Below are positions 1 to 6,991 of a stretch of DNA of 16,144 nucleotides, one piece after another. Origin of the DNA: Candidatus Aminicenantota bacterium (GTDB taxonomy: Bacteria > Acidobacteriota > Aminicenantia > Aminicenantales > JAFGAV01); the NCBI GenBank assembly GCA_016867615.1, contig VGJG01000004.1:1-16144 (forward strand), in the 5' to 3' direction. The stretch's first letter is position 1, and each line of letters starts with the position of its first letter. The position numbers were made by a program, and so were the translations under genes. The notes below the pieces were generated by a model. It worked only from the letters and a program-made list of their open reading frames with translations. It searched no databases and had not been told where the DNA came from.

Positions 1-969
1 CTGGATGTAGTTCGGCAGGAGTGGGATCTTGCCGCCGCCGCCGGGCGAATCGATGACGTAGGCCGGCACGGCCAGCCCGGAGGTCCAGCCGCGCAGCCCC
101 TCCATGACCTCCAGCCCCTTCTCGACCGTGGTCCGGAGGTGGTCGGTGCCGCGGACATAGTCGGCCTGGTAGATGTAGTACGGACGGACGCGGCAGACAA
201 GCAGCCGCTGCATGAGCCGCTTCATCACCTCGGGGCTGTCGTTCACGCCCTTGAGGAGGACGGTCTGGTTGCCGAGGGGGATGCCGGCGTCGGCCAGCAG
301 CCCCAGGCCCCGGGCCGCCTCGGCGTCGAGCTCGTCCGGATGGTTGAAATGGACGTTGATGTACAGGGGATGGTATTTCCTCAGCATGGCCGCCAGATTG
401 GGCGTGATGCGCTGGGGGAGGAAGCAGGGCATGCGCGTCCCGATGCGGATGATCTCCACATGGGGGACGGCGCGCAGCGCGCTGAGAATGCTCTCCAGCT
501 TGTCGTCGACCATCATCAGAGGGTCCCCGCCCGAGACGATGACGTCCCGCACCTCGGGATGCTCGCGGATGTAGCTCAGGCCGTCCTCGAGGTGCCGGGG
601 GTTGATCTTGTCCGGCTGCCCGACCTTCCTCTTGCGCGTGCAGAAGCGGCAGTACGAGGCGCAGGCCGGCGAGACCAGGAACAGCAGCCGGTCCGGGTAG
701 CGGTGGATGATGCCCGGCACGGGCGAGTCCAGGTCCTCGCTCAGGGGGTCGTTGGCCCCGGAGTTCTCCCTGAGCTCGGCGGCGTCCGGAACGACCTGCC
801 GGTACAGGGGGTCCTTGCGGCCCTTGATGAGGCCGGCGTAGTGGGGTGTGATCTGGGCCCGGAATACCCGGCAGATCTTCTTGACTTCATCCTGGTTGAG
901 ATGGAAGCGGTCCGCGATCTCCTCGGGAGTCCGCAGGCTGTCTCTCAGTTGCCGTTGCCATTCTTCCAT
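1..969 (-). CDS. kamA: Lysine 2,3-aminomutase (KamA, radical SAM), 3' end cut by window edge
   Basis: The first 323 codons are present; the C-terminus lies off the left edge. KamA enzymes use a [4Fe-4S] cluster, SAM and PLP to turn L-alpha-lysine into L-beta-lysine. The radical SAM motif is C103-x3-C107-x2-C110 (CASYCRFCTRK), followed by SGGDPL at 146-151. The PLP lysine is K314 in DSPGGGGK. D270 and D307 match, with identical spacing (37 residues apart, 7 residues before the PLP Lys), the two aspartates (D293, D330 in the clostridial enzyme) that hold the substrate epsilon-amino group. This favours lysine over glutamate as substrate. The start is the ATG at 969, with a GAAGGAGA SD overlapping the stop of the upstream GNAT gene 18 nt away. 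It is the last visible gene of a four-gene operon. EpmB-type enzymes that modify EF-P are the main alternative, but no efp gene is nearby. Confidence 0.93.
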   Translation of the reverse strand, partial: MEEWQRQLRDSLRTPEEIADRFHLNQDEVKKICRVFRAQITPHYAGLIKGRKDPLYRQVVPDAAELRENSGANDPLSEDLDSPVPGIIHRYPDRLLFLVSPACASYCRFCTRKRKVGQPDKINPRHLEDGLSYIREHPEVRDVIVSGGDPLMMVDDKLESILSALRAVPHVEIIRIGTRMPCFLPQRITPNLAAMLRKYHPLYINVHFNHPDELDAEAARGLGLLADAGIPLGNQTVLLKGVNDSPEVMKRLMQRLLVCRVRPYYIYQADYVRGTDHLRTTVEKGLEVMEGLRGWTSGLAVPAYVIDSPGGGGKIPLLPNYIQ

Positions 970-987
970 TGGTGCGTCCCGTCTCCT

Positions 988-1461
988 TCAGCCGAAATAT
1001 TTGACGTAGGTCACCCGGTCGTCGCCGGGTTTGTAGAAGCCGGCGATGCGCGCCGCTTCCCGGTAACCCAAGGCCAGGTAGAAGTCCCGCGTGGGCTCGT
1101 ACCCGGTCTGGGAGGAAGTCTCGACGAGGAGCAGCCGGGCGCCCTTGCCGCGCAGCTTCTCCTCGACATGGGTCATCAACAGCCGTCCGACCCCCGCGCC
1201 CCGCCGCTCGGGCGCCACGGCGATCCAGTACAGGTCGTAGGTCCCCGAGGTCAGGGGCGTCGGGCCGAAGGCGGCGTAACCGGCCGCCCGGCCGTCGCCG
1301 TTCCGGAAGACGACCAGCTCGTAATCCCCGCTCTCCGGCCGGTCGAGATAGGAGTCGATGACCTCCTCGGCCACGGCGACCTCGCGGGGAGTGAACAGGG
1401 ACGTGCGCTTCAGGATGTCCATCACGCCCTCCTTGTCGGACTTCGCCATAGGCCGGATCAT
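988..1461 (-). CDS. GNAT family N-acetyltransferase
   Basis: A 157-aa single-domain GNAT protein. The acetyl-CoA pyrophosphate-binding motif is PERRGAGVGRLL (about residues 83-94), preceded by the strand DLYWIAVAP. The C-terminal motif B (FYLALGYREAARIAGFY) is typical of RimI-like and small-molecule acetyltransferases. Its ATG overlaps the stop of the upstream ATP-grasp gene as ATGA, and kamA starts 18 nt after its own stop, so translation is coupled on both sides. The substrate cannot be read from sequence. Next to a lysine 2,3-aminomutase, a beta-lysine or beta-lysyl product is the obvious guess, as in the AblA/AblB pair that makes N-epsilon-acetyl-beta-lysine. This protein is, however, much shorter than AblB/YodP and does not obviously belong to that subfamily. 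Confidence 0.88.
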   Translation of the reverse strand: MIRPMAKSDKEGVMDILKRTSLFTPREVAVAEEVIDSYLDRPESGDYELVVFRNGDGRAAGYAAFGPTPLTSGTYDLYWIAVAPERRGAGVGRLLMTHVEEKLRGKGARLLLVETSSQTGYEPTRDFYLALGYREAARIAGFYKPGDDRVTYVKYFG

Positions 1462-2471
1462 GGCTTCCCGTTCCTCGCCTGGGCGTTGTGGATCATATGC
1501 TTCCAGAAGCGGCTGTATTCGACCCCGGCCGCGCCGAGCGCCCGGGCGAAACCGGCGTTGTGGCTGACATCCGGGTTGGGGTTGACCTCGAGGATGAACA
1601 CCCGGCCCCGCTTGTCCATGCGGAAATCGACCCGGGCGTAATCCCGGCAGCCCAGGGCGCGGAAGGCCTCGAGGGCGTGGCTCTGGAGCCGGTCGCGAAG
1701 CTCATCCTCTATGGCCGCCGGGCAGACGGGCGGGGTCTTGATGTACAGCTCGCTCGTCTCGAACCACTTGGCCTCGTAGCTGATGATGCGCGGCTGGTCC
1801 TTGGGCAGGGCGGTGAAGTCGATCTCGGACACGGGCAGGGCCCTGAGACCGTCCGCCTCCATGACGGCCACGTTGAACTCCCGGCCGTCGATGAACTCCT
1901 CGACCAGGACCGGAAGCCCGAAGCGGTCCCGGACGGCGGCCAGGACCGTGCGCAGCGCGTCCTCGTCCCGGACGACCGACCCGGGGGTGATGCCCATGCT
2001 GGCGTCCTCGGCGTTGGGCTTGACGATCAGGGGGAACTTCAGGGGCGGGATATCGTCCGCGGACTGCACCAGGCGGGCGGCCGGCGTGGGCAGCCCGTGC
2101 GAGGCCAGGACGGCCTTGGCCTTGAACTTGTCCTGACAGAGGCTGAGGGCCCGCATGACGTTGCCCGTGAAGGACACGCGCAGCAGCTCGTACACTCCGG
2201 CCACGTTGGACTCGAGGCGCGTCGTGCCGCTGAAGCTCTCGCAGAGATTGATGACCACGTCGGGCTTGACTTCCTGGATGCGCCGCAGAAAACCGACGAA
2301 ACTCTCCTTGACGGGGATCAGGACGGCCGGATAGCCGAGGGTCAGCACGGCCTCGTACACCTCGCGGGCCATTTCCTCGACCGTCTCCTCGGACAGTTCC
2401 TTGTCGGCGGCCTTGGGGTTGGGGATGTAGACCTCGTAGACCACGCCGACCAGTGGCTTGCCGTTGTTCAT
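1458..2471 (-). CDS. ATP-grasp ligase, D-Ala-D-Ala ligase-like (paralogue B)
   Basis: A 337-aa ATP-grasp enzyme of the D-alanine--D-alanine ligase C-domain type. Visible parts are the N-terminal Rossmann-like domain (LVGVVYEVY at 7-15), ATP-binding Lys in IVKP (K151), a divergent nucleotide loop EDASMG at 155-160, SYEAKW at 231-236, ARVDFRMD at 279-286 and the metal-binding EVNPNPD at 295-301. True Ddl enzymes have a GSS-type loop and N-x-x-PG near the C-terminus. Here both are changed (DASMG; NPNPDV), so the acceptor or product is probably not D-Ala-D-Ala. It likely forms an amide or peptide bond through an acyl phosphate. It starts at the ATG at 2471, overlapping the stop of the upstream ATP-grasp gene by ATGA, and it ends overlapping the GNAT start. 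No mur, dcw or cell-wall genes are nearby. Confidence 0.9.
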   Translation of the reverse strand: MNNGKPLVGVVYEVYIPNPKAADKELSEETVEEMAREVYEAVLTLGYPAVLIPVKESFVGFLRRIQEVKPDVVINLCESFSGTTRLESNVAGVYELLRVSFTGNVMRALSLCQDKFKAKAVLASHGLPTPAARLVQSADDIPPLKFPLIVKPNAEDASMGITPGSVVRDEDALRTVLAAVRDRFGLPVLVEEFIDGREFNVAVMEADGLRALPVSEIDFTALPKDQPRIISYEAKWFETSELYIKTPPVCPAAIEDELRDRLQSHALEAFRALGCRDYARVDFRMDKRGRVFILEVNPNPDVSHNAGFARALGAAGVEYSRFWKHMIHNAQARNGKP

Positions 2472-3520
2472 GACCGGATCCCCCAGCGGCGGGCCGCCTC
2501 CTCCACGACGCGGTGGATCAGCCCGGAGTAGGTGTAGCCGGCCGTGCGCGCGGCCTTGGGCAGGCAGGAGTTTTCCTCGGGGTTGGGCAGGATGCCGGGC
2601 AGGGGGTTGACCTCCAGGATGTTCGGCTCCCCCTTCTCGTCCAGACGGACATCGACCCGGCACCAGTCCCGGACGCGGAGCAGCCGGCAGGTCCTCTCGA
2701 CGACGTCCCGGATCTTCTTCTCCAGGGCGGCGGAGATGTCCGCCGGACAGCGGAAAATGGGCAGCGGGTTCTCGGGCGTGTCCCAGATCCACTTGGCCTC
2801 GTAGGAGTAGATGGGGTTGGCCCCCCGGGGCAGAAGCCCGTGGTCGATCTCGACGATGGGCAGGACCTCGTAACGGGGCGGGTTGCCCAGGAGTCCCACG
2901 GTGAATTCCCGGCCGCTCAGAAACTTCTCGACGATCACCGGCTGGGCGTATCGCGCGGAGATCTCCGACGCCCGCTCCTCGAGTTCGGACCGCGTCCGGA
3001 CGACGCAGTTGTCGGCGATGCCCTTGCTCGAGCCCTCGTAGAGGGGCTTGACGATGGCCGGCAAGGCCGCCGCGTCCGGCACCGGCTCTCCCGCTTCCAC
3101 CGTCCAGAAAGCCGGCGTGGGAACGCCGTGATAGGCCAGGATCTCCTTGGCCCGGGATTTGTCGAGACAGATGCCCAACGTCAGCGGGTCGGAGCCGGTG
3201 TAGGGCAGGTCGAGCACCTCGCACATCACGGGGATATGCGACTCGCGGCTCGAGCCGAAAAGGCGCTCGGCGATGTTGAAGACCAGGTCGGGGCGCGCCC
3301 CGCGCAGCCGGTCGTAAGCGTCCTTATCGGCCTCGACGGGAACGACCTCGTGCCGCTCCTCGAGCGCTTGAATGATGGCCCGGATGGTTTCGTCGGAATC
3401 GCACTCGGCATACATATCCGGTGGAGGCTCGCCGTCTTCCTCCGTCACCTCTCCCGTTTTTTTCAGGCGCAGCCACTCGGCCATGCCGTTTTTAGAGCTG
3501 AACACAAGAGCGACTCTCAT
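2468..3520 (-). CDS. ATP-grasp ligase, D-Ala-D-Ala ligase-like (paralogue A)
   Basis: A 350-aa ATP-grasp protein and the first gene of the operon. Motifs are K158 in IVKP, the nucleotide loop YEGSSKGI (161-168), SGREFTVG (202-209), SYEAKW (239-244), RVDVRLD (288-294) and LEVNPLPGI (302-310). These are closer to canonical Ddl than in the downstream paralogue. SYEAKW, SGREF and RVDxRxD are shared by both, so the pair came from a duplication within this subfamily and then diverged. The N-terminal 35 residues include a charged insert (EVTEEDGEPPP) unusual for Ddl. The start is the ATG at 3520. SD support is weak: the nearest purine run, AAGGGGA, lies about 17 nt upstream. A strong promoter lies at 3602-3629. 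Function is inferred as an amide-bond-forming ligase; a housekeeping Ddl role is unlikely given the kamA/GNAT partners. Confidence 0.9.
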   Translation of the reverse strand: MRVALVFSSKNGMAEWLRLKKTGEVTEEDGEPPPDMYAECDSDETIRAIIQALEERHEVVPVEADKDAYDRLRGARPDLVFNIAERLFGSSRESHIPVMCEVLDLPYTGSDPLTLGICLDKSRAKEILAYHGVPTPAFWTVEAGEPVPDAAALPAIVKPLYEGSSKGIADNCVVRTRSELEERASEISARYAQPVIVEKFLSGREFTVGLLGNPPRYEVLPIVEIDHGLLPRGANPIYSYEAKWIWDTPENPLPIFRCPADISAALEKKIRDVVERTCRLLRVRDWCRVDVRLDEKGEPNILEVNPLPGILPNPEENSCLPKAARTAGYTYSGLIHRVVEEAARRWGIRS

Positions 3521-3601
3521 GGCACGAAACTTGTATGTCCCCTTTTTTTCTCAGCGGCCCTTGCCGTTTTTACTTGAATAATTCATCTTCTCTTAACTCA
3601 A

Positions 3602-3629
3602 ATGATAGCCTTATTTTTTTAAATGTCAA
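3602..3629 (-). promoter_or_regulatory. Sigma70-type promoter of the ATP-grasp/GNAT/kamA operon
   Basis: On the minus strand, TTGACA (3624-3629), a 16-nt spacer and TATCAT (3602-3607). The -35 is perfect and the -10 matches at five of six positions. The next 30 nt upstream are almost pure A/T, like an UP element. The predicted transcript start is near 3595, giving a leader of about 75 nt before the ATG at 3520. Confidence 0.75.
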
Positions 3630-3774
3630 TACTTTTTTATTAATTTTTATACTTTTTTATGGATTAAGGATTTTGGTACCCCAACCCGTTGTGGCGAACA
3701 CCCACTCCGGTCAAAGTCGAATCGGACCTGGTAGGTATGTTGCGCATGAGTTGACGTTCCCTATATGTATATTT

Positions 3775-3808
3775 AAAAATACGTCCCCGAAGATATCATG
3801 GGGATACG
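3775..3808 (-). terminator. Probable intrinsic terminator of the 274-aa gene
   Basis: On the minus strand, a stem of GGGG/CCCC plus CGT/ACG with a 2-nt bulge (arms 3800-3808 and 3782-3788, loop 3789-3799) is followed by TATTTTT. It lies about 50 nt past the stop of the minus-strand gene ending at 3857. The stem is short and bulged, so confidence is moderate. Confidence 0.45.
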
Positions 3809-3856
3809 CAGCATGGTTTCCCTGAGCGCGCCTCGTCCCGTTCTTCTCCGCGCGCT

Positions 3857-4681
3857 TCAGGGCAGGAAGGTCGTATCGAGGTAAAAAGACCTGCCGGGAA
3901 GGGACCGTCCCCTCGGGGAACGGGAACCGGGCCGCTTGTCCAGGACATGCACGCCCGCTCTGCTCAAATCGTCCAAGAGAATCGAATCGGTCTCTTTTTC
4001 CACGTGGAGGACGATCCCGCCCCCGGCGCTCCGGGCGGCGCGTCCGAGGTCGCGGATGCGTTCCGAATCCGTCAGGAGGTCGATCGCGTTGTCTCCGACA
4101 TGGACCCAGGCTCCCTCTTCGGCCGGCGTTTCGGCTTCCGGAGAAAGAGCCCCGTGATGGTAGTAAACGAGCTCCGCCCCGTCCCGGATTCTCGAGAGGG
4201 CCAGGCGGCGGAGAACGCCGGCCGGCCGGCTCCTCTCCCTGTTGGAGAGGTGGACATCGACGCCGCTGCGGAGCAGCTCGCCCAGGGAGTCCGGGCCCAG
4301 GCGCCCGGCCTCTTCCCCTTCATCGAGGGGGCCGTGGTGAAAGAAGGCCACGTACGCTCCCGAGGGCTCGGCCGTCCGTCCGAGGCGGACGAGGTCGAAG
4401 ACGACGGGCCGGATGTCGTCCGCGGTGAAGAGGTCGGCCCCCGCGGCGGCCAGCCATTCCAGGTCGCGCGCCTCGAGCTTGCCCGAATCGACGAGCCGGA
4501 AGCGCCGGCCGCGGCGACGGGCCCGGCCTGCGGCGTCGAGGAGCCAGGGGAAAGGATGCTGGTCGTCGCGAACGGTCGCTCCGGGCGGCTCTCCGGCTAC
4601 GTCGAGCAGACGGAATCCGCGGGCCGCCGCCCTTTCGGCGGGATCGCCGTCCGCTCTCTCTTTCCTTATCGCCTCCGTCAT
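3857..4681 (-). CDS. Hypothetical protein, 274 aa, unrecognised
   Basis: I do not recognise this family. The sequence alternates predicted beta strands and helices (RFRLVDSGK, LEWLAAAGADLFTADD, GVDVHLSNRER, GAWVHVGDNAIDLL, GGGIVLHVEK, AGVHVLDK), suggesting a soluble alpha/beta or TIM-barrel-like fold. There is no signal peptide, membrane segment or Cys cluster. The frame stays open up to 4807, but the promoter at 4707-4734 would put the transcript start near 4700. The first usable start is therefore the ATG at 4681 (MTEAIRKER). Its leader would be only about 20 nt, with a poor SD (GGA). The C-terminus is Arg/Ser/Pro-rich and ends in FYLDTTFLP. It is divergent from queC and separated from it by a palindromic repeat element. 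Codon use is typical of the window. Confidence 0.7.
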   Translation of the reverse strand: MTEAIRKERADGDPAERAAARGFRLLDVAGEPPGATVRDDQHPFPWLLDAAGRARRRGRRFRLVDSGKLEARDLEWLAAAGADLFTADDIRPVVFDLVRLGRTAEPSGAYVAFFHHGPLDEGEEAGRLGPDSLGELLRSGVDVHLSNRERSRPAGVLRRLALSRIRDGAELVYYHHGALSPEAETPAEEGAWVHVGDNAIDLLTDSERIRDLGRAARSAGGGIVLHVEKETDSILLDDLSRAGVHVLDKRPGSRSPRGRSLPGRSFYLDTTFLP

Positions 4682-4706
4682 AGTTTCCGTCCGTTCTCGG
4701 GTCCGA

Positions 4707-4734
4707 ATGATAGCACATCTCCCGGTCGTGTCAA
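4707..4734 (-). promoter_or_regulatory. Promoter of the 274-aa hypothetical gene
   Basis: On the minus strand, TTGACA (4729-4734), a 16-nt spacer and TATCAT (4707-4712). Hexamers and spacing are identical to those of the promoter at 3602-3629. Transcription would start near 4700, just upstream of the ATG at 4681, which decides the start codon of that gene. Confidence 0.7.
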
Positions 4735-4825
4735 TCGGCGTCCGGTCCCTCAGGCGCCGATGGCGCGGTCTCGACCGGCGGGCCGCTCTAAAATCACAGG
4801 CTTCCAATCAAGAACTCGACCCGCC

Positions 4826-4893
4826 TTTGGAGTGCGGCGACCCGTCGCCGCGATCCAAAACGGCCTCATGCAGCCGCACTCCAAAAAACGGCC
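4826..4893. repeat. REP/MITE-like palindromic element
   Basis: TTTGGAGTGCGGC at 4826-4838 recurs as its exact reverse complement at 4873-4885, giving 13-bp terminal inverted repeats on a 60-bp unit. Inside, GCGGCGAC (4834-4841) and GTCGCCGC (4844-4851) form a perfect 8-bp stem with a 2-nt loop. The right half contains an imperfect direct repeat, GCCGC-x3-CCAAAACGGCC (4847-4865) and GCCGC-x3-CCAAAAAACGGCC (4873-4893). It sits between two divergent promoters and encodes nothing. This architecture fits REP-type or small non-autonomous elements; no second copy is seen in this window. Confidence 0.6.
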
Positions 4894-4932
4894 GGCCTCT
4901 TTCGGTCGACATGGCGGCAACCAGGCGCCGTA

Positions 4933-4961
4933 TTGAAAAACGGCCCCGGGTGCACTATCAT
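4933..4961 (+). promoter_or_regulatory. Promoter of the queCDE operon
   Basis: TTGAAA (4933-4938), a 17-nt spacer and TATCAT (4956-4961). The transcript start would be near 4968, about 19 nt before the queC ATG. This makes the TTG at 4933, in the same frame, an implausible start. Confidence 0.6.
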
Positions 4962-4986
4962 CGACCCGAGGCCGAGACGGAATCCC

Positions 4987-5682
4987 ATGAGCTCCTGCGT
5001 CGTTCTTTTCTCCGGAGGACTCGACTCGACCACCGCCCTGTACTGGGCGCGGAAGAGCTACGGACGCCTCGAGGCCCTGACCTTCGATTACGGCCAGAGG
5101 CACCGGGTCGAGGTGGTCCTGGCCGCCCGCACCGCCTCGCGTCTGGGGCTGAAGTCCTTCGTCCTGGCCGTCGACCTGGCCGCCGTAGGCGCCTCGGCCT
5201 TGACCGACCCCTCGATCCCCGTCCCCGAGCTCGACGCGCTCCCCGGGGACGCGCCCCTTCCCTCGGCGACTTATGTCCCCTTCCGCAACGGGGTCTTCCT
5301 CTCCCTGGCCGCGGCCTGGGCGGAGGCCCGGGGCATCGGCGACATCGTCTGCGGGTTCAACACCCTCGATTCGCCCGACTACCCGGACACGCGGTCGGAG
5401 TTCGTGCGGGCCATGGAGCAAGCCGTGCGGCTCGGCACCAAGGCCGGCGCGCGCGGCGCGGCCCCGCGGATCATCGCTCCCTTCCTGAACCTGAAAAAGA
5501 GCGCCATCATCCGTCTGGGCCTCGAGCTTCAGGCCGATTACTCCCAGTCGGTGTCCTGCTACCGCGGGGAGGAGGTCCCCTGCGGTCGCTGCACGGCCTG
5601 CCTGCTGCGCCGGAGGGCTTTCGAGGAAGCGGGGCGGCCCGACCCCCTGCTCCTCAGGCTGGAGAAGGAGGGCAAGATATGA
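4987..5682 (+). CDS. queC: 7-cyano-7-deazaguanine (preQ0) synthase QueC
   Basis: QueC converts 7-carboxy-7-deazaguanine to preQ0 using ammonia and ATP, in queuosine biosynthesis. The 231-aa length equals that of the E. coli enzyme. The PP-loop ATP motif SGGLDS is at residues 9-14 and the family motif VPFRN at 97-101. The C-terminal zinc site is C191, C199, C202 and C205 (CYRGEEVPCGRCTAC). The ATG at 4987 is chosen because MSSCVVLFSGG begins as the family does and because the predicted transcript start lies between 4961 and 4987. Its stop overlaps the queD start as ATGA, so the two are translationally coupled. Regulation by a preQ1 riboswitch is not seen; the leader is too short to hold one. 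Confidence 0.96.
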   Translation: MSSCVVLFSGGLDSTTALYWARKSYGRLEALTFDYGQRHRVEVVLAARTASRLGLKSFVLAVDLAAVGASALTDPSIPVPELDALPGDAPLPSATYVPFRNGVFLSLAAAWAEARGIGDIVCGFNTLDSPDYPDTRSEFVRAMEQAVRLGTKAGARGAAPRIIAPFLNLKKSAIIRLGLELQADYSQSVSCYRGEEVPCGRCTACLLRRRAFEEAGRPDPLLLRLEKEGKI

Positions 5683-6026
5683 GCTGGACGCTGAGCGTCA
5701 GGGACCGGTTCCAGGCCGCCCACTTTCTTAAGGAATACCGGGGCAAGTGCGAGAGGGTTCACGGACACACCTTTCAGGTCGAGGTCAAGGTCCGGGTGCG
5801 GGAGCTCGACCGGACGGGCATGGGGGTCGACTTCACCGAGATCAAGAGAAAACTCGCGGAAGTCCTCCCCGACCATGTCCTGCTCAACGACGTCTACGAC
5901 TTCAACCCCACGGCCGAGAACCTCGCCCGCCGCTTTTTCCTGGACCTGAAAGAACACTTTGCCGTCCGGTCCGTCACGGTCTGGGAATCCGAGGATGCCT
6001 CCGCCACCTACGCTGAGGATCTCTGA
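5679..6026 (+). CDS. queD: 6-carboxy-5,6,7,8-tetrahydropterin synthase QueD
   Basis: QueD makes 6-carboxy-tetrahydropterin from dihydroneopterin triphosphate, the second step of the pathway. The protein is 115 aa, normal for the family. Zinc ligands are H15 (AAHF), H28 and H30 (VHGH). The catalytic Cys is C24, the Asp/His pair is D66-H67 (PDHVLLND), and E103 lies in VWESEDASATY. The start at 5679 has a strong GGAGG SD inside the end of queC. Its 3' end overlaps queE by 32 nt. A 6-pyruvoyl-tetrahydropterin synthase is the close relative, but the Cys spacing and the neighbours settle on QueD. Confidence 0.95.
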   Translation: MSWTLSVRDRFQAAHFLKEYRGKCERVHGHTFQVEVKVRVRELDRTGMGVDFTEIKRKLAEVLPDHVLLNDVYDFNPTAENLARRFFLDLKEHFAVRSVTVWESEDASATYAEDL

Positions 6027-6624
6027 GATCTTCGCCTCGGTCCAGGGCGAGGGCCTCCGCCAGGGTGAGCCCACGCTCTTCGTCCGCACCGCCGGCTGCG
6101 ACCTCCGTTGCCGCTTTTGCGACACCAAGACCGCCTGGAAAGGGGGCGCGCCGATGACCGTCGGGGACATCCTCGGCCGCCTGGCCCGGCTCCGGGAGCG
6201 TTTCCCGGCCGCGTGGGTCTGTCTCACGGGCGGCGAACCCTTTCTCCAGGACATCGGCCCGCTGGTCACGGCCTTGAAGCGGGAGGGGCTGCGGGTGCAG
6301 GTCGAGACGAACGGCCGGCATTACCGCGCCCTCGAGGCCGACTGGCGCACGGTGTCCCCCAAGCCTCCCTCCTACGCCGTGAGCCGGGAATACCGCCGCC
6401 TGGCAGCGGAGGTGAAAATCATCGTGACCCGGGAGCTGACTTTCGAGGTTCTCCGCCGGCTGCGCGGCTTCTTTCCCCCGGCCACGCCGCTCATCCTCCA
6501 GCCCCAGTCGCGCAGGAAATGGAGCGCGGCCAAGGGCCTGCGTCTTCTGGGCGGGAGTCTGCGAGCCGGGCTGAAGAACATTCGGCTCATGACCCAGGCT
6601 CACAAGGAGCTGGGGTTGAAATGA
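5995..6624 (+). CDS. queE: 7-carboxy-7-deazaguanine synthase QueE (radical SAM)
   Basis: QueE rearranges 6-carboxy-tetrahydropterin to 7-carboxy-7-deazaguanine. The 209-aa protein opens with LRISEIFASVQGEG, the QueE signature. It carries the cluster motif C35-x3-C39-x2-C42 (CDLRCRFC) and TGGEP at 78-82 for SAM binding. The ATG at 5995 is used because it places the QGEG motif at residue 17, as usual for the family. The GAGG next to it is too close for an ideal SD, so coupling to queD translation (32-nt overlap) is likely. A further in-frame ATG at 5959 would add 12 non-conserved residues. It ends 21 nt from the convergent minus-strand gene. A GACGCG/CGCGTC stem spans the stop codon (6623-6637) but has no T-tract. 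Confidence 0.95.
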   Translation: MPPPPTLRISEIFASVQGEGLRQGEPTLFVRTAGCDLRCRFCDTKTAWKGGAPMTVGDILGRLARLRERFPAAWVCLTGGEPFLQDIGPLVTALKREGLRVQVETNGRHYRALEADWRTVSPKPPSYAVSREYRRLAAEVKIIVTRELTFEVLRRLRGFFPPATPLILQPQSRRKWSAAKGLRLLGGSLRAGLKNIRLMTQAHKELGLK

Positions 6625-6645
6625 CGCGACGCGCGTCCCGGATAT

Positions 6646-6870
6646 CTATTCGGTCTCGTCCTTAGTTTCCTCGGCGCCGCCGGCTTCCGCCGGGCTCTCT
6701 TCAGGTTCGACGGCCCAAGCCTCACCGGTATCGGGACTTACCGGCTCCGTCTCGCCCTCCCCCTCGGCGGGCTGGGTTTTCCCCTGGCGCCGCAGTCGCT
6801 TCTCTTCCTGTTTTTTCTGCCTCTTGAGCTCTTTGCTCCGCTTGGCGCTTTTATACGCGCTTCGGGCCAT
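6646..6870 (-). CDS. Small charged hypothetical protein, 74 aa
   Basis: It begins MARSAYKSAKRSKELKRQKK and continues with a strongly basic, helix-forming stretch to residue 31. It then switches to an acidic, Glu/Pro-rich, probably disordered tail (ETEPVSPDTGEAW...ETKDETE). The AAGGAGGG SD sits at ideal distance before the ATG at 6870, so it is very likely expressed. I recall similar short KSxKRxKELxRQKKQEEK proteins from other anaerobic bacteria, always uncharacterised. The basic helix suggests nucleic-acid or ribosome contact, and the upstream neighbour on the same strand is an RRM protein, possibly co-transcribed across a 147-nt gap. No membrane segment or Cys. Confidence 0.75.
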   Translation of the reverse strand: MARSAYKSAKRSKELKRQKKQEEKRLRRQGKTQPAEGEGETEPVSPDTGEAWAVEPEESPAEAGGAEETKDETE

Positions 6871-6891
6871 AATCCCTCCTTGTCCGTTCGC

Positions 6892-6918
6892 TCTCCCCCG
6901 ACCGGCCGTAGGGGGAGA
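6892..6918. other. Hairpin in leader of the 74-aa gene
   Basis: TCTCCCCC (6892-6899) pairs perfectly with GGGGGAGA (6911-6918), loop of 11 nt. It lies just upstream of the SD of the minus-strand 74-aa gene. No T-tract follows on either strand, so this is leader structure or a processing site, not a clear terminator. Confidence 0.4.
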
Positions 6919-6991
6919 AACCCCTTTGAGGCAGGGGAACGCTGAACGACAGAGAACGCCCCCGGGACGCGCCCCGGCGTTCCAACACAGA

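Follow-up and report, generated by a model that had tools for sequence, protein, structure and literature searches.

Synthesis of the dipeptide osmolyte N-acetylglutaminylglutamine amide (NAGGN) involves an amidotransferase plus an acetyltransferase/ligase fusion, and in outline the route builds a capped dipeptide through amide bond formation by an ATP-grasp enzyme and a GNAT acetylation step. Beta-lysine occurs in streptothricin-type antibiotics. In the AblA/AblB system, a lysine 2,3-aminomutase and an acetyltransferase are encoded in a single operon, and in the EpmA/EpmB system a short KamA-type aminomutase is found. DdlB and the Van ligases belong to the family PF07478 and carry a set of ATP and magnesium residues. 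An operon from the Aminicenantales, an order that is widespread and hardly cultured, shares features with each of these systems. Unlike the AblA/AblB operon, it adds two ATP-grasp ligases to the aminomutase and the acetyltransferase, its GNAT has no AblB match, and its KamA belongs to a separate clade with a C-terminus shorter than that of LAM. Compared to the NAGGN route, the operon is without an amidotransferase and has KamA and two Ddl-like ligases.

The stretch of DNA analysed (the window; 16,144 nucleotides) is one entire contig of an Aminicenantales MAG. Its positions 1-3629 carry, on the minus strand, a promoter-led operon with the order AG1-AG2-GNAT-KamA. AG1 (2468..3520; 350 aa) and AG2 (1458..2471; 337 aa) are both Ddl-like ATP-grasp ligases (PF07478, E 7e-33 and 3e-32 respectively). 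They are followed by a GNAT acetyltransferase of 157 aa (988..1461; PF00583) and a KamA-type lysine 2,3-aminomutase (1..969; PF04055 and LAM_C), of which the first 323 aa are present, the C-terminus being cut by the contig end. The four proteins are separate chains. ATGA overlaps link AG1 to AG2 and AG2 to the GNAT gene, and KamA starts 18 nt past the GNAT stop. A sigma-70-type promoter (3602..3629, minus strand; 11/12 matches) lies ~80 bp before AG1, with TTGACA at 3629-3624, a 16 nt spacer and TATCAT at 3607-3602. Promoter-like sites in the 3000-5000 region of the window numbered 5, compared to a mean of 0.4 in shuffles. Ahead of AG1, 51 of 58 rows carry an exact TTGACA within a site matching at 10 or more of the 12 positions, compared to 48 of 3212 control windows. 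KamA of the sister genome (L033) is full at 363 aa and is the final gene of the operon; the next gene, ~0.3 kb past it on the same strand, resembles by eye an unrelated outer-membrane protein. The gene identities and coupled minus-strand operon of the initial annotation are confirmed by the ORF coordinates, the ATGA overlaps and the family matches, and the single promoter proposed there recurs before AG1. Its suggestion of further operon genes beyond the left edge is not borne out, as the edge hides just the end of KamA. No Rfam match above the gathering score was seen in the window or at L033, L037, L042 and L190. A defence system was considered and rejected, no PADLOC match at E<=1e-5 being obtained for any of the four proteins.

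Within the order, the gene set is present or absent as a unit. Among 59 relatives, AG1 was detected in 38 (E<=1e-100) and KamA in 39 (E<=1e-60), both being present in 38 and neither in 20; in a phylum sample of 396, AG1 was found in 36, KamA in 80 and both in 35 (each E<=1e-60), these co-occurrence counts being raw and uncorrected for shared ancestry. Of the 20 relatives without AG1 and KamA, 19 belong to family f6 and one is G048; in the remaining relative, G003, KamA, the GNAT and a partial AG2 lie where a 4501-base contig ends. AG1 and KamA lie on one contig in 36 of the 38 genomes; in G014 and G039 the pieces sit at contig ends. KamA is found without AG1 in 45 of the 80 KamA genomes of the phylum sample. 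The AG1-AG2-GNAT-KamA order is seen in 14 of 17 named loci, which come from an AG2 contig scan reaching close relatives only and are labelled Aminicenantes, Acidobacteria and, in one case, Clostridiales. Of 15 regions taken from other classes of Acidobacteriota, 10 also have the full four-gene order. The order is thus conserved outside this genome, and the initial annotation passes this check, which it had set for itself. The order in the named loci, together with the TTGACA site recurring before AG1, places the operon beyond chance. Ligases without an adjoining KamA occur at three loci (L043, L087, L100). In G079 (L087) and in G063, KamA is located elsewhere (51% identity) and falls outside the operon clade, and no KamA was found in the genome of G378 (L100). 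When the neighbourhoods of 22 loci were roughly clustered, one non-cassette family (among those in at least 3 loci) linked the order with another class; it is present at L033, at L090 and in the window, where its member overlaps a Cys/Met PLP enzyme.

The CxxxCxxC radical SAM motif and the position of the PLP lysine (K337) are kept in 27 operon KamAs and in the window KamA, and so are the positions of LAM R134, D293 and D330, numbered from an alignment of the sister KamA to 2a5h. In LAM, D293 and D330 hold the epsilon-amino group of lysine. Judged from the alignment, the operon KamAs keep the residues expected for a lysine substrate. For the KamA tree, 27 operon loci, of which 15 are named and 12 belong to other classes, and 20 unlinked KamAs were chosen, L046 being omitted as its KamA is partial; 7 of the 20 unlinked sequences, including E. 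coli EpmB, were lost at the motif filter, and EpmB is thus outside the tree. A branch supported at 100/95 separates the 28 operon KamAs from the 13 unlinked ones. The window KamA fragment scored 438.7 bits and four KamAs of relatives, some of them incomplete, scored 441.8-471.7 bits against the AblA NCBIfam equivalog cut-off of 525.4 bits; the operon KamA does match the broader KamA subfamily TIGR00238. It is thus a KamA-family protein with a predicted role in beta-lysine production, and is not assigned as an AblA equivalog. The number of residues after K337 is 47-65 in 26 complete operon KamAs and 33-95 in the 13 unlinked ones; as these ranges overlap, C-terminal length alone does not mark the clade.

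The DdlB residues K97, K144, E180, E187, K215, D257, E270 and N272, the ATP/Mg set, are kept in AG1 and AG2 of the window. Compared to DdlB, the window AG1 retains R255, S150, G276 and S281 and has Y216 replaced by W and L282 by C. In AG2, S150 and S281 are both replaced by A and Y216 by W, and an NPNPD motif puts Asp at the position of G276. The Tyr216 position is occupied by Trp in 17 of 17 AG1 and 15 of 15 AG2 aligned rows, and E15 has no alignable counterpart in either ligase. With these changes, neither AG1 nor AG2 carries the full E15/S150/Y216 triad of D-alanine--D-alanine ligase. Their scores of 177.7 and 151.9 bits are far under the NCBIfam Ddl cut-off of 243 bits (NF002378). Both ligases, by their sequences, retain the ATP-grasp residues and not the D-Ala-D-Ala ligase signature. 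The NPNPD motif is also present in AG3, a third ATP-grasp protein of the window's genome, upstream of which 8.5 kb was read and contained no KamA; the Asp of NPNPD is therefore not specific to the pathway. In G013, a further divergent Ddl-like gene adjoins what by eye is a likely glutamate racemase (L188).

The solved structure nearest to the window GNAT is 2r7h, a protein from Desulfovibrio with the molecule name 'putative D-alanine N-acetyltransferase'. In G002, G050, G131 and G258, AG1-AG2-KamA is kept with no GNAT between AG2 and KamA, and acetylation, a step of the route proposed initially, is better regarded as optional. Distant GNATs are encoded elsewhere in G002 (40%) and G050 (34%); in G131 no GNAT was detected at E<=1e-4, and G258 gave just a weak match.

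From the family assignments, gene order, co-occurrence and residue patterns described above, we infer the substrates, the order of steps, the product and the role of the pathway. The operon would probably encode a dedicated pathway, complete in itself, that makes a small conjugate of beta-lysine. KamA, a radical SAM and PLP enzyme, would convert L-lysine to beta-lysine, and the two ATP-grasp enzymes would each activate a carboxylate as acyl phosphate and form an amide bond, coupling beta-lysine to one or two amino acids. The DdlB residues that hold the carboxylate of an amino-acid acceptor are retained in AG1. Two of them are lost from AG2, where Asp is present instead; a cationic acceptor, for instance beta-lysine, would fit such a site. 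Acetylation of a free amine by the GNAT would be an optional final step. Between a molecule of a protective or osmotic pool in the cytosol and a secreted natural product, we slightly favour the former. A more specific proposal, which we make tentatively and hold to be possible rather than probable, is that Acidobacteriota maintain in the cytosol a standing pool of an unreported class of N-acetylated beta-lysyl peptides (di- or tripeptides), made by a compact four-gene route in which the ligase with the Asp pocket joins beta-lysine. In the literature searched, outside of which most subscription journals lie, no paper linked KamA with paired ATP-grasp ligases. The fixed order across classes of the phylum, the presence or absence as a unit and the kept promoter point to a small molecule that seemingly nobody has sought. 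Of the interpretation in the initial annotation, the genes, the promoter, the gene order, the lysine-type active-site residues of KamA and the two divergent, apparently non-Ddl ligases stand, and the extra genes leftwards do not.

KamA and the GNAT, the latter acting as AblB, could instead constitute the N-epsilon-acetyl-beta-lysine osmolyte route, with the ligases having a separate role in the same operon. An aminomutase and an acetyltransferase in a single operon is indeed the abl arrangement, as given in PMC1224877, but the AblB family TIGR03827 is absent from the matches of the window GNAT and was detected in none of the 59 relatives, compared to 4 of 14 control genomes. The exclusion of the 13 unlinked KamAs from the operon clade also argues against this route, as does the finding that the ligases and KamA occur jointly or not at all within the order whereas some copies are without the GNAT; we consider it unlikely. 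Modification of EF-P by an EpmB-like KamA, a check on the initial annotation that had been set beforehand, is still harder to sustain. The C-terminus of the operon KamAs is shorter than that of LAM, as is that of YjeK/EpmB according to PMC2821294. However, AblA is the best family, with 438.7 bits against 243 bits for EpmB (TIGR03821 cut-off 369.3), and EpmA above its cut-off was detected in 0 of 40 genomes compared to 2 of 14 controls, the best EpmA matches lying nearly all in frames of ~500 aa that fit lysyl-tRNA synthetase. At the position of E. coli EF-P Lys34, the six EF-Ps of four genomes have Asn and Ala (two copies each, G000 and G001) or Arg (G017 and G048), and EF-P is present in 57 of 59 genomes as against KamA in 39. 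These results make EF-P modification extremely improbable; it and the AblA/AblB route are both disfavoured. That KamA belongs to lysine fermentation, of which it is step one according to PMC8674449, and is placed in the operon incidentally would agree with the many KamAs without AG1 in the phylum, but leaves the co-occurrence of AG1 and KamA in the order unexplained. Lysine 5,6-aminomutase (PF09043) was matched in 0 of 40 genomes, but 0 control genomes matched either, so this result is no evidence of absence; we hold this explanation to be very unlikely.

Several observations count against the dedicated conjugate pathway: the many KamAs in the phylum without AG1, the loci where ligases have no adjoining KamA, the copies without a GNAT, GNAT relatives that occur alone, the KamA scores under the AblA cut-off, and the NPNPD motif of AG3. 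It has also to be weighed against other roles for the ligases. Membership of AG1 and AG2 in the Ddl family, and R255, G276 and S281 retained in AG1, would be consistent with cell-wall D-Ala-D-X enzymes, beta-lysine entering peptidoglycan or a precursor. The low bit scores, the Trp at the Tyr216 position in all aligned AG1 and AG2 and the loss of S150, G276 and S281 from the window AG2 argue against this. In addition, family f6 of the same order is without orthologues of both ligases, which are thus not needed for the wall; it is in G013 another divergent Ddl-like gene that lies by the apparent racemase, and no mur or van gene was noticed by eye among the neighbour families of the 22-locus clustering. 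A wall function is in our estimate improbable. Synthesis by the ligases of a secreted, antibiotic-like beta-lysine peptide rather than a pool metabolite might be suggested by the weak similarity of the window GNAT to streptothricin and nourseothricin acetyltransferases, and the EamA transporter near 7 of 11 loci within the order is compatible with export. Unlike a patchy antibiotic cluster, the genes sit behind a conserved promoter and occur in 38 of the 59 genomes examined from the order, and the 22-locus clustering shows no transporter family bridging the order and other classes. The chance of such a product seems to us slight.

Relatives of single cassette proteins were also seen in other settings. 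Relatives of the GNAT (33-39% identity) are carried on 9 plasmids of other phyla; in 5 annotated plasmids of 6 examined, whose gene tables are incomplete, no KamA or ATP-grasp protein is annotated within 5 kb. AG1 relatives on plasmids gave 48 records, with a best identity of 37.9% among 20 listed, and on two of these plasmids (Sinorhizobium, Rhizobium) no KamA or GNAT is annotated beside the gene. The ligase tree gives weak support to the branching between AG1, AG2 and Ddl (53/77 at the root), and no weight is placed on it. In favour of the pathway, a single protein (P0279) fuses AG1 to a C-terminal portion of AG2. An AG1 relative with 62% identity (P0353, among 120 listed of 8000) is labelled Bacteroidota.

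The cassette consists of four minus-strand genes, two Ddl-like ATP-grasp ligases (AG1, 3520-2468; AG2, 2471-1458), an acetyltransferase (GNAT, 1461-988) and a lysine 2,3-aminomutase (KamA, 969 to the contig end), placed behind the promoter TTGACA-N16-TATCAT at 3629-3602 (minus). ATGA overlaps join AG1 to AG2 and AG2 to GNAT, and 18 nt separate GNAT from KamA; the coordinates thus bear out the layout proposed in the initial annotation. The window is the entire contig C4 of a 2.44 Mb MAG (completeness 82.7%), whose named relatives are mainly Candidatus Aminicenantes MAGs. The sister genome's locus (L033) carries the same genes at 84% (AG1), 85% (AG2), 78% (GNAT) and 91% (KamA) identity. There KamA is the operon's final gene and an unrelated gene begins ~0.3 kb further, which argues against the earlier suggestion of additional operon genes beyond the left edge.

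Conservation was analyzed in 59 relatives. AG1 (E<=1e-100) was present in 38 and KamA (E<=1e-60) in 39, with both in 38 and neither in 20, the latter comprising all 19 genomes of family f6 plus G048. In three f6 genomes the best KamA-like match reached only ~1e-32 to 1e-33. A contig end in genome G003 carries KamA, GNAT and a partial AG2. AG1 and KamA share one contig in 36/38 genomes, and GNAT adjoins AG2 in 35/37 AG1 genomes (G036 outside the count), being absent from this place in G002 and G050. In a phylum sample of 396 genomes (E<=1e-60), AG1 was found in 36, KamA in 80 and both in 35; 45 carried KamA without AG1. Sixteen AG1 genomes lie outside the order, and 10 of the 15 regions retrieved from them contain the complete cassette in order. 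Loci L094 and L099 are without GNAT, L087 (genome G079) has GNAT without adjoining KamA, and the L090 region stops at GNAT. L100 (genome G378) has only the two cassette ligases, its AG1 being without part of the ATP loop, and KamA was not found in that genome. The sixteenth, G323, has a partial AG1, GNAT and KamA on a single contig; KamA is sited elsewhere in the genome in G079 and G063.

The complete cassette was seen in the same order in 14 of 17 named loci, including two with KamA truncated at the contig end (L034, L046) and one with a broken GNAT frame (L035). L048 begins within AG2 and L038 is without GNAT. In L043 the expected KamA place is taken by a transposase-like gene (5978-6919; REP-type, by eye). 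These counts are not independent of the whole-genome counts: the contigs of many named loci also belong to the G-numbered genomes (e.g. L033 = G001:C15, L036 = G043:C1). The gene order is shared outside this genome, as had been expected, and the cassette is real and conserved. Similar REP-type genes (by eye) were also observed at the operon end in L037 (10679-11623) and L041 (10702-11676).

Among 58 rows upstream of AG1, 51 contain a perfect TTGACA with >=10/12 matches; some of the rows come from families with only ~51-55% AG1 identity to the window. Two of the remaining rows (L167, L178) are misplaced fragments. In the control, 250 bp windows from 14 loci that still contained the AG1 upstreams, 48 of 3212 scored. 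The promoter was absent as scored at L005, L027, L098, L099 and L100; L190, the L099 locus with the correct AG1 start, has TTGACA-N17-TATAAG.

Ligase residues were compared with E. coli DdlB. K97, K144, E180, E187, K215, R255, D257, E270 and N272 (DdlB numbering) are common to AG1 and AG2. AG1 also keeps S150, G276 and S281, with Tyr216 replaced by Trp and Leu282 by Cys; AG2 has Ala150, Trp216, Asp276, Ala281 and Gly282. From these residues we infer that AG1 would accept an amino acid whose carboxylate is free and that AG2 would take a different acceptor, perhaps a cationic amine. The genome has a third Ddl-like ATP-grasp, AG3 (G000:C6:13660-14628; L184:8565-9719, minus), which carries the NPNPD motif and adjoins a putative zinc metallopeptidase (PF15887, 27.7 vs cut-off 27). 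AG3 has Asp276 too, and the link of that residue to beta-lysine is thereby weakened. In one protein, P0279 (604 aa), residues 1-335 match AG1 (48%) and 394-567 the C-terminal part of AG2 (48%); unless it is an assembly artefact, this single chain hints that AG1 and AG2 may act jointly. A divergent Ddl-like protein at L188:2906-4816, adjoining a glutamate racemase-like gene (by eye), has S150 changed to Arg, K215 to Arg and Y216 to His, which is unusual for Ddl.

The closest solved relative of GNAT is 2r7h (E 3e-35). GNAT relatives occur on nine plasmids from other phyla. Six were examined (H23, H28 and H29 left out), the Ensifer record among them being without annotation, and KamA or ATP-grasp genes were annotated within 5 kb on 0/5 annotated plasmids. 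For the sister KamA, the sole match among solved structures was lysine 2,3-aminomutase 2a5h (E 4e-120), with C125, C129, C132, R134, D293, D330 and K337 kept; these positions serve the cluster, the carboxylate, the epsilon-amino group and PLP. A branch with support 100/95 separates the operon KamAs from 13 unlinked Acidobacteriota KamAs.

Among NCBIfam models the operon KamA scores highest with AblA, though under that model's cut-off; the glutamate and arginine aminomutase models rank lower. Service in the AblA/AblB route to N-epsilon-acetyl-beta-lysine is weakened, as AblB was found in 0/59 genomes. EF-P modification by KamA is weakened likewise: EpmA exceeded its cut-off in 0/40 genomes, and the Lys34 position is Asn, Ala or Arg in the EF-Ps of four genomes read. 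The two copies of the window's genome (C187:3180-3731, C220:1482-2039) have Asn and Ala, and those of G017 and G048 have Arg; a second EF-P match was absent from family f6, genus g12 and some other genomes. A role in lysine fermentation was only weakly tested, as the marker search (lysine 5,6-aminomutase) gave no match in 40 genomes and none in any control genome. Because a beta-lysine maker is linked to two amide-forming ligases, a beta-lysine conjugate is the simplest reading. The pathway logic is plausible, and a dispensable cap fits as the role of GNAT. No description of the cassette was found in the literature searched. The nearest known kinds are beta-lysine solutes and ATP-grasp-made capped peptides, and the cassette would be a variation on these.

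A second TTGACA-N16-TATCAT promoter, with the hexamers and spacing of the operon promoter, lies at 4707-4734 (minus). The ORF behind it (~3857-4690, minus) has no Pfam match; its product shows 31% identity over 266 aa to L034:4415-5275, a family also present in L033 and L045. Queuosine precursor genes occupy 4990-6624 (QueC by Pfam; QueD- and QueE-like frames by eye), and in L033 and L037, too, QueD/QueE-like frames precede the operon.
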